Origin: Bradyrhizobium stylosanthis | GTDB taxonomy: Bacteria; Pseudomonadota; Alphaproteobacteria; Rhizobiales; Xanthobacteraceae | Reading direction: 5' to 3' | Assembly: GCF_001641335.1 (NCBI RefSeq) | Contig: NZ_LVEM01000004.1 | Location: 748,100 to 812,099 of the forward strand | Length of the DNA stretch: 64,000 nucleotides | Part shown: positions 7,402 through 18,596 of the stretch, in pieces | Layout of the letters: each line of letters opens with the position of its first letter | Numbering within the stretch: the stretch's first letter is position 1 | Program-made: the position numbers and the translations under genes | The notes under the pieces: model-generated | Databases searched by the model: none | What the model was told of the DNA's origin: nothing | The model's input: only the letters and a program-made list of their open reading frames with translations

Positions 7402-7446
7402 TTGACATAAGCGGACCAATCAGGCGATGTTACATTATAACATCGC
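7402..7446 (+). promoter_or_regulatory. Candidate Zur box with TTGACA element upstream of zinc-type TonB locus
   Basis: Positions 7424-7446 form a 23-bp palindrome whose outer 9-bp arms GCGATGTTA and TAACATCGC match perfectly. The core TGTTACATTATAACA agrees well with the Zur (zinc uptake repressor) operators known from proteobacteria (GTTATA-type dyads). A perfect TTGACA hexamer lies at 7402-7407. The site is 46 bp upstream of the DUF2946 start and would control it and the TonB receptor. Zur identity is inferred from the motif and the neighbours. Confidence 0.7.
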
Positions 7447-7491
7447 GACGCCCTCGGATTGGCGCCTCGCGATGTGGGGTGGCGTTTGCAG

Positions 7492-7896
7492 ATGAAGTGG
7501 TTCCGGTCGCATATCAGGCATGGTGCCCGGCTCGCGTTGTTCGCGATGCTGGTGCAATTCGCGCTGACGTTCGGCCATACCCATTGGTTCGCCCAGGCCG
7601 CCCCGCTCGCTACGAGCTCTTTCCAGCAGACCGACGGCGCCAAGGCGGCCGGCTCGGCCGACCGGCTTGCGGTCCAGAAGCAATCGCCCTCCGCGCCCGA
7701 CCGCGAGCAGCCGGGCGACGATAATTGCGCCATCTGCGCCATCATCGCGATGGCCGGCACGGTCCTGTCGGCGACGCCGCCTTTGCTGCAGCTGCCGCAG
7801 GCGATCGAGCTGCTCTACCGCACCACCGATGCCGAATTCATCCATCTGAAATCGGCCAGCACGGCGTTCCAGCCGCGCGCTCCTCCCGCGTCCTGA
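7492..7896 (+). CDS. DUF2946 family protein
   Basis: A 134-residue small protein with an N-terminal signal or anchor helix (ALFAMLVQFALTFGHTHWF), a central polar region and a CAIC motif followed by a hydrophobic stretch, the usual arrangement of DUF2946. Such proteins are often encoded beside TonB-dependent metal receptors. The HTH and CxxC residues could touch a metal, but this is inference. I prefer the ATG at 7492 over one 33 bp upstream because homologous proteins begin close to the basic-hydrophobic signal and GGGGTGG sits before 7492. It lies directly under the Zur-like box and 148 bp before the receptor gene. Confidence 0.8.
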   Translation: MKWFRSHIRHGARLALFAMLVQFALTFGHTHWFAQAAPLATSSFQQTDGAKAAGSADRLAVQKQSPSAPDREQPGDDNCAICAIIAMAGTVLSATPPLLQLPQAIELLYRTTDAEFIHLKSASTAFQPRAPPAS

Positions 7897-8044
7897 CTCC
7901 AGCCATCACTTGATCACGCCCGCCCTCGCCGCTTGCAGGCGATCGGCCGGGAGAAGCTGAAGTCGAATTCCGTCGCGCCGCGACGGCAGGCCGCCTCCGA
8001 TCAACACACCCATATGCGGACGGCGCCTGAGTGGAATCAGGACC

Positions 8045-10435
8045 ATGTCATTTGAATTGCGACGCGTGCAGCGTCTGGGCGGAGCGAGCCTGCTCCTGCT
8101 CGGTGCCGCCGCCACATCTGCGTTCGCCCAGGAGCTCGCACAGGCACCGACACAGGCGCCTGCCCAGGACAAGTCGTCGACGGAGATCCCGGCCGTCACC
8201 GTGACGGCGCCGAGCCCCATCGTGCGCCGGGTGGTGCCGACCCGCAGCCCGGTCCGCGTCGCCCGCACCGGACGCTCCCGCAGCCAGCAACGCACGGCGG
8301 AAGCAGCGCCGGCGACGCCGATGGCGACCGCGCCTCAGCAGGGCGTTCTCCCTGTTGTGACCAACCAGTTCGCCACGGTCACCGTGGTGCCGAACGAGGA
8401 GATCCGCCGCGAGGGCGGCGGCCAGCTCGGCGATCTCCTGTTCTCGAAGCCCGGAATCACCGGCTCGAGCTTCGCGCCCGGCGCCTCCAGCCGGCCGATC
8501 ATCCGGGGTCTCGACGTCAACCGCGTCGGCATCGTCGAGAACGGCACCAATTCGGGCGGCGCCTCCGATCTCGGCGAGGATCATTTCGTCCCGATCGATC
8601 CGCTCGCGACCAACCAGGTCGAAGTGGTGCGCGGCCCGGCCGCGCTGCGCTACGGCTCGACCTCGATCGGCGGCGTCGTCAGCGCCACCAACAACCGGAT
8701 TCCGGATGCGCTGCCGTCCTGCGCGCCGTCGTTCCAGACCTGGGGCTTGCCGACCAAGGCCCCGCTCGCAAGCGCCGCGACGTCGCCGTGCGTTACCGCC
8801 GAGACGCGCACGGCGTTCTCTTCGGTCGATCGCGGCGTCGAGAGCGGCGTGCTGCTCGACACCGGCGGCGGCAATTTCGCCTTCCATGCCGACGCCTATG
8901 GCCGCACCACCTCGGACTACAACATTCCCGCCTATCCCTACCTGAACGACCAGACGCGTCCCGTGAACGGACGCCAGCCGAACTCGGCGACGCGCTCGGA
9001 CGGCGCCTCGATCGGCGGCTCCTATTTTTTCCAGGGCGGCTATATCGGCGCCGCGATCACGCAGAACGACTCGCTCTACCACATCCCGGGCATCGACGGC
9101 GCCGACCACCAGACGCGGATCGACGGTCACCAGACCAAGATCAACGTCAAGGGCGAGTACCGCCCCGACGCGACCGCGATCGACACCATCCGCTTCTGGG
9201 CCGGGGCGACCGACTACCGCCACAACGAGATTGGCCTGCTTGACCCCGCCGACCTCAACAGCGACGGCATACGGCAGACCTTCACCAACAAGGAGCAGGA
9301 GATCCGCACCGAGGTGCAGTTGATGCCGTTCAACGCGCGCTTCGCCGAGGTGACGACGGCGCTGGGCTTCCAGGTCGGCCATCAGGAACTGAGCGCGCCG
9401 AGCCCGGACAATCCCGGCACGCTGTTCAACGGGTTGTGGGACCCGAACAACAGCACGCGCGTTGCCGGTTACGCCTTCAACGAGTTCAGGTTCACGGAAG
9501 CGACGCGGGCGCAGATCGCCGGACGCATCGAGCATGTCGAGCTGCACGGCACGACGCCCGACTTCCCCGCGGACTATCTGCCCGACGGTACGCCGCAGGC
9601 GGCGATCTCGCGCAATCCCTCCTTCACGCCCAAGAGCGGCAGCATCGGCCTGCTGCAGGACTTGCCGGGCGGCATGGTCGGCAGCATCACCGCGCAATAT
9701 GTCGAGCGTGCGCCGAAGGCGGCCGAGCTGTTCTCCCGCGGCGGCCATGATGCGACGGCGACCTTCGACATCGGCAATCCCAATCTCACCATCGAGACCG
9801 CCAAGTCGGTCGAGCTCGGCGTGCGCAGGGCGACGGGACCGTTCCGTTTCGAGGCGACCGTCTACTACACGCATTTCGACAATTTCATCTATCGCCGCCT
9901 CACCGGCGTGATGTGCGACGACGACTTCGCCTCGTGCGGCAATCCCGGCGCCGAGCTGAACCAGGCGGTCTATTCGCAACGCAATGCCAACTTCCGCGGC
10001 GGCGAATTCCAGTCGCAGCTCGACGTCGGCGCGTTCCAGGGCGGAATCTGGGGTATCGAGAACCAGTTCGACTTCGTCCGCGCCACGTTCAGCGACGGCA
10101 CCAACGTGCCGCGCATTCCGCCCCTGCGGATGGGCGGCGGCGTGTTCTGGCGCGACGACAACTGGCTGATGCGCGTCAACCTGTTGCACGCCTTCGCGCA
10201 GGACAATGTCGCCGTGATCGCGGAGACGCCGACAGCGGGCTACAATCTGTTGAAAGCCGAGGTCAGCTACAAGACCAAGCTCGATCCGAGCCGGTTCGGC
10301 GCACGCGAGATGATCGCCGGCATCGTCGGCAACAACCTCCTCAACGAAAGCATCCGCAACTCGGTGTCCTACACCAAGGACGAGGTCTTGATGCCCGGCA
10401 TCGGCGTGCGGGCGTTTGCGAACTTCAAGTTCTGA
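8045..10435 (+). CDS. TonB-dependent receptor, probable zinc (ZnuD-type) uptake
   Basis: A 796-residue outer-membrane receptor. After the signal peptide (cleavage near AFAQ-EL, about residue 30) comes a TonB-box-like segment EIPAVTVTAP, then an unusually long basic linker (RRVVPTRSP through RTGRSRSQQR) before the plug domain (NQFATVTVVPNEEI, PIIRGLDVNRV, VEVVRGPAALRYGS). The remainder is a 22-strand barrel ending in phenylalanine (AFANFKF), the BAM recognition signal. A loop around residues 222-248 carries two cysteines. The Zur-like operator and DUF2946 neighbour suggest zinc as substrate; copper or another metal complex is the alternative. The ATG at 8045 directly precedes the signal peptide. 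Confidence 0.88.
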   Translation: MSFELRRVQRLGGASLLLLGAAATSAFAQELAQAPTQAPAQDKSSTEIPAVTVTAPSPIVRRVVPTRSPVRVARTGRSRSQQRTAEAAPATPMATAPQQGVLPVVTNQFATVTVVPNEEIRREGGGQLGDLLFSKPGITGSSFAPGASSRPIIRGLDVNRVGIVENGTNSGGASDLGEDHFVPIDPLATNQVEVVRGPAALRYGSTSIGGVVSATNNRIPDALPSCAPSFQTWGLPTKAPLASAATSPCVTAETRTAFSSVDRGVESGVLLDTGGGNFAFHADAYGRTTSDYNIPAYPYLNDQTRPVNGRQPNSATRSDGASIGGSYFFQGGYIGAAITQNDSLYHIPGIDGADHQTRIDGHQTKINVKGEYRPDATAIDTIRFWAGATDYRHNEIGLLDPADLNSDGIRQTFTNKEQEIRTEVQLMPFNARFAEVTTALGFQVGHQELSAPSPDNPGTLFNGLWDPNNSTRVAGYAFNEFRFTEATRAQIAGRIEHVELHGTTPDFPADYLPDGTPQAAISRNPSFTPKSGSIGLLQDLPGGMVGSITAQYVERAPKAAELFSRGGHDATATFDIGNPNLTIETAKSVELGVRRATGPFRFEATVYYTHFDNFIYRRLTGVMCDDDFASCGNPGAELNQAVYSQRNANFRGGEFQSQLDVGAFQGGIWGIENQFDFVRATFSDGTNVPRIPPLRMGGGVFWRDDNWLMRVNLLHAFAQDNVAVIAETPTAGYNLLKAEVSYKTKLDPSRFGAREMIAGIVGNNLLNESIRNSVSYTKDEVLMPGIGVRAFANFKF

Positions 10436-18540: not shown

Positions 18541-18596
18541 TGATGTCATGTAACATCAGAACATGTAATAGATGTTATTTTGTAAAATATGTAACA
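18541..18596. promoter_or_regulatory. AT-rich dyad cluster upstream of the RamB-like regulator
   Basis: Two dyads lie in a strongly AT-rich stretch: TGATGT-N6-ACATCA at 18541-18558 and TGTTA-N14-TAACA at 18573-18596, the latter with ATTTTGTAAAAT in its centre. They end 45 bp before the regulator start, so this is probably its promoter and possibly an autoregulatory site. No single hexamer pair is clear enough to name. Confidence 0.45.

Follow-up and report, generated by a model that had tools for sequence, protein, structure and literature searches.

Translated leaders of the DUF2946 family are known for sensing copper during translation. In the cruR-bfrG operon of Bordetella pertussis, the nascent CruR chain is described as sensing copper by a CxxC motif and halting at an RAPP motif (PMC9426467), and in the cutFOG operon of Rhodobacter capsulatus, CutF is described as translated, exported and cis-acting, with a stem-loop which shields the downstream Shine-Dalgarno (SD) sequence (PMC9973294). 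Regarding zinc, Caulobacter crescentus carries Zur sites of the form GTTA-n5-TAAC before the genes of the TonB receptors znuK, znuL and znuM, and its DUF2946 gene CC2720 is the first one in the Zur-activated czrCBA operon (PMC4176598). Here we analyse 64 kb of Bradyrhizobium stylosanthis DNA (assembly GCF_001641335.1, contig NZ_LVEM01000004.1, positions 748,100 to 812,099, hereafter the window), in which a Zur-type operator, a DUF2946 open reading frame (ORF) and the gene of a TonB-dependent receptor follow each other. On sequence grounds, the most fitting reading of the DUF2946 gene is that of a leader of the CruR/CutF type under Zur, with its stop codon as an anti-SD read-out and zinc as the likely ligand; a leader family known for copper is apparently adapted to zinc at this locus.

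The operator and its partners in the genome

The dyad GCGATGTTA-CATTA-TAACATCGC lies at 7424..7446 on the forward strand, and an earlier note on this DNA was right in describing it as a 23-bp element with perfect 9-bp arms (the spacer is 5 bp) ahead of the DUF2946 gene and the TonB receptor, since both ORFs follow on the same strand. It presents 5' of the DUF2946 gene the GTTA-n5-TAAC dyad which is the Zur consensus as given in PMC4176598. A search of the window with ATGTTANNNNNTAACAT at up to 2 mismatches gave 3 matches versus 0.13 expected from shuffles, and the only one without any mismatch is 7424-7446. Two box-like matches at 18548-18588 (beginning at 18548 and 18572, with 1 and 2 mismatches) are located between an isocitrate lyase gene and the gene of a RamB/ScfR-type regulator, and probably belong to that regulator and not to Zur.

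To follow the box in related species, the receptor was searched in 98 Bradyrhizobium genomes and matched at 1e-100 in 76 of them; the regions upstream of the gene were analysed in 70 of the 76, the other 6, partial or contig-end matches among them, being left out, and the named genomes holding orthologues are all Bradyrhizobium. The box is kept with at most 2 mismatches in 69 of these 70 regions (0 mismatches in 57, 1 in 10, 2 in 2, and 4 in the remaining one, L084). In the ungapped alignment of 69 regions, the mean majority-base frequency reaches 0.87 over the 23 box columns, versus 0.52 in the 60 bp before and 0.48 in the 50 bp after. A -35-like element, TTGACA, stands at 7402..7407 on the forward strand, and TTGAC is found 22 or 25 bp 5' of the box core in 57 of the 69 regions, a conserved spacing which would place the box at about the position of the -10 element or the start point of transcription. 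The distance from the box to the DUF2946 ORF is usually ~30-70 bp; it is 226-417 bp in 10 of the 70 regions (L058, L063-L065, L067, L070, L073, L076, L081, L087).

The window is part of contig C17 of an 8.8-Mb genome, which was scanned with a pattern derived from the window box, so that the window match is perfect by construction. At up to 2 mismatches there are 12 matches versus 5 for the reversed control pattern. At up to 1 mismatch three places remain, namely the window operon, a ZigA-type GTPase gene and a zinc ATP-binding cassette (ABC) operon; the earlier note had proposed such a scan for the motif at znuABC, and the latter two are the zinc genes that carry it. The site before the GTPase gene is an overlapping double one, and the gene product matches the ZigA zinc metallochaperone GTPase at 616.6 bits (cut-off 600). 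The ABC operon encodes matches to AztA (216.6 bits, cut-off 220), to PF01297 (296.8 bits) and to AztB (167.2 bits, measured on a cut-off fragment). Among the 5 Fur-family proteins of the genome, one is Zur-like (L005), three are Irr-like and one is Fur-like; the best match of L005 is PRK11639 Zur at 117.1 bits, under the cut-off of 167. Given a conserved box, shared with ZigA and a zinc ABC operon, and one Zur-like Fur protein, the Zur-type reading of the palindrome, also put forward in the earlier note, holds as far as sequence evidence goes.

The probable DUF2946 leader and the start region of the receptor

The first gene of the operon is a DUF2946 ORF of 134 aa (7492..7896, forward strand; PF11162 at 42.4 bits, cut-off 23.7), which is present in all 70 orthologue regions. 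It begins with a hydrophobic stretch that was judged by eye to be a putative export signal, and beside this stretch lies H29-x-H31 (7576..7584). Further downstream are a CxxC, C79-A-I-C82 (7726..7737), as a putative metal site and an RAPP, R129-A-P-P (7876..7887), as a putative arrest motif, the latter three residues from the C-terminal end. Both cysteines, RAPP, H29 and H31 are retained in 70/70 orthologues while other positions vary, with identity down to ~42%; H118 is present in 68/70. The distance between CxxC and RAPP is 46 residues in 69 orthologues and 45 in one. We took as marks of a leader a PF11162 match, a CxxC-RAPP distance of 45 +/- 2 residues with RAPP close to the C-terminal end, an export signal and the first place in an operon, and all of these are found here, the export signal as judged by eye. 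Because this anatomy (export signal, CxxC, 46 residues, RAPP, stop) is that of CruR and CutF, the DUF2946 protein is probably a cis-acting nascent-chain leader of their kind and not a zinc-handling protein. The role in zinc homeostasis which the earlier note assigned to DUF2946 would thus stand for a cis-acting leader of this type only, and the leader anatomy speaks against it for a protein that handles zinc.

The same genome has another DUF2946 leader (L013, C1:1017197), which lies ahead of a further TonB receptor. It contains CxxC and RAPP and has no H-x-H at the place of H29 and H31, and its end, TTTTCCTGA, is complementary to GTCAGGA 5' of its receptor start.

The receptor gene at 8045..10435 on the forward strand encodes 796 aa. 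Its best match of 23 in NCBIfam is ZnuD (NF038289, 212 bits) and its best match in the PDB is ZnuD as well (4rdr, E 2.8e-31), which supports the earlier proposal of a likely ZnuD-like zinc importer. The 212 bits are far under the ZnuD cut-off of 950 bits in NCBIfam, where the model is marked exception-type, and the receptor is on that account a distant relative, which resembles ZnuD and is not claimed as ZnuD by name. The copper receptors of the OprC family were rejected as an assignment, at 34.3 bits versus 212 for ZnuD. Eight paralogous receptors with ~46% identity (L088-L095), in open frames of ~1055-1190 codons, occur in some Bradyrhizobium; neither DUF2946 nor the box was found upstream of any of the eight, which serve as a negative control.

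Between the leader and the receptor is an intergenic leader of 148 nt (7897..8044, forward strand). The leader ORF ends with GTCCTGA (7890..7896), that is, a terminal serine codon TCC plus the stop, as a putative anti-SD strand, and the SD region of the receptor, TCAGGAC, is found at 8037..8043, conserved near the start; TCC-TGA is the reverse complement of TCAGGA. The last residue is serine in 67/70 orthologues, with TCC as its codon in 67/67, versus 94 of the 575 remaining serine codons of the same ORFs (in the set of distinct sequences). This is the strongest codon bias among 50 conserved positions, followed by P131 (CCT in 62/70). On the other side, TC[AG]GGA occurs at most 24 nt from the receptor start in 64/69 regions, in two arrangements lying 8 or ~14 nt away; in a rough control, which took the first ATG in each of 39 long window ORFs, it occurs once, possibly at the receptor itself.

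In the minimum-energy fold of the window sequence, 7890-7896 pairs with 8037-8043. L086 was excluded from the RNA tests, as its start was not found. Over 61 orthologues, with intergenic lengths of ~99-170 nt, the predicted probability of pairing between the leader end and the SD region is 0.88 on average and at least 0.5 in 56. When the leader end is masked, as a halted ribosome would do, the mean unpaired share of the start-site core rises from 0.05 to 0.51, with an increase in 61/61 orthologues and of at least 0.2 in 51; a control deletion of 27 nt in the middle of the gap gives 0.19, and a TCG codon gives 0.39. For the window alone the share is 0.006, which becomes 0.70 with the end masked and 0.76 with TCG. 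The gap also contains a hairpin, CCGTCGC-n3-GCGACGG (7970..7986, forward strand), with perfect CCGTCG/CGACGG arms in 46/69 regions; its 5 pairs are mostly kept, with T-A to T-G in 10/49, and the conservation of CGTCG/CGACG says little.

The pairing was also examined family-wide with 107 thinned DUF2946 loci, for which starts were picked by SD strength and not by complementarity. Leader ends and their own downstream start regions pair with a mean energy of -11.5 kcal/mol, versus -9.1 for pairing with the regions of others, a preference reached by 0 of 20000 permutations, and 23 loci fall in the best 5% versus 5.35 expected. With windows shifted by -90, -60, -30 and +30 nt the number of such loci is 10, 7, 5 and 7, and the energy difference is only 0.5-0.7 kcal/mol. 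In 18 of 114 loci the leader end is not surpassed by any other window of the leader. New here are the fixed terminal TCC, its complementarity to the receptor SD and this family-wide preference for pairing with the own site.

Zinc and copper among DUF2946 loci

In regard to the metal, we surveyed DUF2946 loci in three sets of genomes. The Pfam model matched in 64 of 241 genomes from the class, where three weak or broken hits were left out, and in 91 of 299 from the phylum, where 90 were taken among the matches listed, as 30 loci and 60 more. The Bradyrhizobium alignment, which favours sequences like that of the window, matched in 16 of 249 genomes from the order. Altogether 186 loci were processed, 176 of which came from the Pfam searches; 147 of the 176 have a CxxC or CxxxC together with a PP end, and the other 29 were set aside. 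Downstream genes were grouped by BLAST and a subset of them was compared with Pfam or NCBIfam models.

Of the 147 loci, two (L156 and L180) carry the strict motif [FYW]GHxH next to the hydrophobic stretch. Each of them lies before a porin-like gene and a zinc-type ABC importer with ABC-3 permease genes; a Zur-like box at 1 mismatch accompanies L156, and a ZnuA-type protein was tested for and present at L180. The alignment search added three loci with the strict motif, one before a ZnuD-like receptor and accompanied by a perfect box (L189), one before ZrgA (L190, 181.4 bits) and one before a CzcB/CzcA system (L197), as well as related His patterns at L192 (ZrgA) and L194 (ZnuD-like). A looser HxH rule retains 10 of the 147 loci, which are four porin-ABC operons (L116, L156, L170 and L180, two pairs of relatives), one CopC locus (L148) and five loci with a TonB receptor not assigned to a metal. 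The loose motif is thus found in 4 of 5 recognised zinc-type loci (the fifth is L169) versus 6 of 142 others, with a Fisher p of 5e-5 that disregards both relatedness and unscanned downstream genes. Leaders without the motif include those of PCuAC, PepSY_TM, CopC, YcnI and SCO operons. As the motif recurs before zinc operons, with exceptions, the sequences suggest that H-x-H leans to zinc and is not a strict code.

In another Bradyrhizobium genome, a leader of the GHxH type (L197, with L408) heads a CzcB/CzcA efflux system (CzcA at 846.8 bits, cut-off 701) and has no Zur box. The porin-like proteins of L116, L156, L170 and L180, together with L399-L402, form an OprO/OprP-like or unassigned family with a His-rich C terminus, which sits between the DUF2946 leader and the ZnuA/ABC-3 genes and may be a zinc porin. 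In the reverse test with 30 ZrgA loci, 19 have a Zur box at up to 1 mismatch and 11 have none; a convincing DUF2946 ORF was found at 0 of the 19 (a spurious frame, L374, was excluded by eye) and at 2 of the 11 (L386, L395), a difference which is not significant (Fisher p 0.13).

A possible two-layer switch and its alternatives

We propose that a zinc-uptake receptor is under a zinc switch of two layers, Zur acting on the DNA and then a zinc-responsive translated leader, and give this reading a probability of about 0.5. At the first layer, zinc-loaded Zur would bind 7424-7446 over the promoter and repress the operon. At the second, translation of the first gene would produce a DUF2946 nascent chain like those of CruR and CutF, with His-x-His next to its signal sequence and with CxxC and RAPP 46 residues apart. 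When zinc is low, the ribosome would halt at RAPP and cover the last codon and the stop (UCCUGA), which then could not pair with the SD region of the receptor (UCAGGA); the SD region would be left free and the receptor therefore translated. With zinc on the chain, the halt would be relieved, the ribosome would leave, and UCCUGA would close the SD region and turn the receptor off. At the level of sequence there is support for the operator with its regulon partners, the leader anatomy, the invariant motifs, the terminal TCC, the complementarity and the predicted pairing; Zur binding, the arrest, zinc rather than copper as the ligand and the on/off switch are what we infer. More tentatively, and at somewhat less than even odds, we suggest that DUF2946 leaders include a zinc-sensing branch (His-x-His by the signal sequence plus CxxC) under Zur, and that many copper and zinc members would use their last codons and stop as an anti-SD strand, with the ribosome halted at RAPP as the switch.

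Several results weigh against these proposals. The AlphaFold model of the leader is poor, with a mean predicted local distance difference test score of 52.5 that makes it of no use, and shows no metal site. Folding of 49 gapped intergenic sequences with RNAalifold gave no consensus structure, and the leader fold of the window is not stabler than shuffles (z -0.62). The six core pairs of the helix between the leader end and the SD region are nearly invariant and for this reason show no covariation, which lends support to neither side; in only 17/67 orthologues do at most 2 of 50 shuffled start regions pair as well, and the orthologues are not independent. Over the family, the leader end of the median locus is not preferred to other windows of its own leader (0.48), so that pairing with the own end holds for a subset; with this median rank, stop-codon pairing in every family member is not supported. 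Six of the 10 leaders with loose HxH head no recognised zinc genes, one of them being that of CopC, and there is no GHxH at L169 (ZnuA) or L191 (weak ZnuA match).

Turning to other explanations, Irr, Fur or chance behind the dyad were rejected in view of the conservation and the regulon partners: four further Fur-family proteins (three Irr-like, one Fur-like) are encoded in the genome, yet the box is kept in 69/70 regions and sites with at most 1 mismatch are common only to zinc genes, which makes a chance palindrome or the site of another Fur-family protein highly improbable. That the operon is an ordinary Zur operon, with DUF2946 as a small exported zinc-binding protein aiding the receptor, seems unlikely to us; HxH and CxxC could bind zinc, there is an export signal and the two genes are co-operonic in 70/70, but a nascent-chain device fits both the RAPP, placed at a fixed distance and three residues from the end, and the invariant terminal codon, and CruR and CutF are described as acting in cis, with CutF undetectable in cells.

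The circuit might also have the same two layers with a leader that senses copper, or several metals, like CruR, the zinc response coming from Zur only. CxxC and RAPP are indeed the motifs of CruR (PMC9426467), most sampled DUF2946 leaders head genes of TonB receptors, PCuAC, PepSY_TM, CopC, YcnI or SCO, and a cross-talk of zinc and copper is plausible, as in Pseudomonas aeruginosa, where copper efflux genes are reported to be lowered under zinc starvation (PMC9431628). Against it, H29-x-H31 is invariant here and missing in L013, the strict motif recurs before zinc-type operons and the receptor scores far lower for OprC than for ZnuD, and we judge it to have a poor chance. Rho-dependent termination in the 148-nt gap, with the SD complementarity being secondary, has been published for the nearest leader so far characterised, that of B. 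pertussis cruR-bfrG with a gap of 162 nt, and this precedent counts against our proposal as well; termination does not require an invariant TCC or any complementarity, however, and CutF was published with an SD-shielding stem-loop (PMC9973294), so we regard the Rho mechanism as doubtful for this operon.

If the two-layer switch is true, metal-sensing nascent chains are no speciality of copper, the DUF2946 family gains a readable signature of metal specificity (H-x-H plus CxxC), and the stop codon as an anti-SD strand offers a simple general read-out linking CruR and CutF. It would also explain the small DUF2946 gene between the Zur box and the zinc receptor across much of Bradyrhizobium, and the question of the switch is testable through one synonymous codon change. 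No literature joining an arrest peptide with zinc and Zur was found, and a zinc-sensing leader is not described in the passages covered of the DUF2946 literature, a partial coverage which is no proof of absence.

Compared with the known systems, the receptor has its closest PDB and NCBIfam match in ZnuD of Neisseria, from which it differs in the distant score (212/950 bits) and in the preceding leader. For C. crescentus, the passages covered of PMC4176598 regard DUF2946 as a hypothetical protein and mention no leader of this family ahead of a receptor that Zur represses. With CutF the locus shares the DUF2946 family, and its ORF would likewise be a translated, exported and cis-acting leader, with a predicted pairing that may shield the SD as the stem-loop of CutF does; unlike here, CutF has CxxxC and turns cutO on with copper, and its main text is without zinc or Zn2+ (PMC9973294). 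The likeness is closest to CruR, in which a DUF2946 ORF likewise opens an operon that includes a TonB receptor, with CxxC, ~45 residues and RAPP near the C terminus and a long gap behind (the CxxC-RAPP distance is 45 versus 46 here), whereas CruR responds to copper via Rho termination and the main text makes no mention of zinc or Zur (PMC9426467). What the present locus has and CruR has not are the Zur box, the ZnuD-like receptor, the invariant H29-x-H31 and a leader end complementary to the SD of the receptor.

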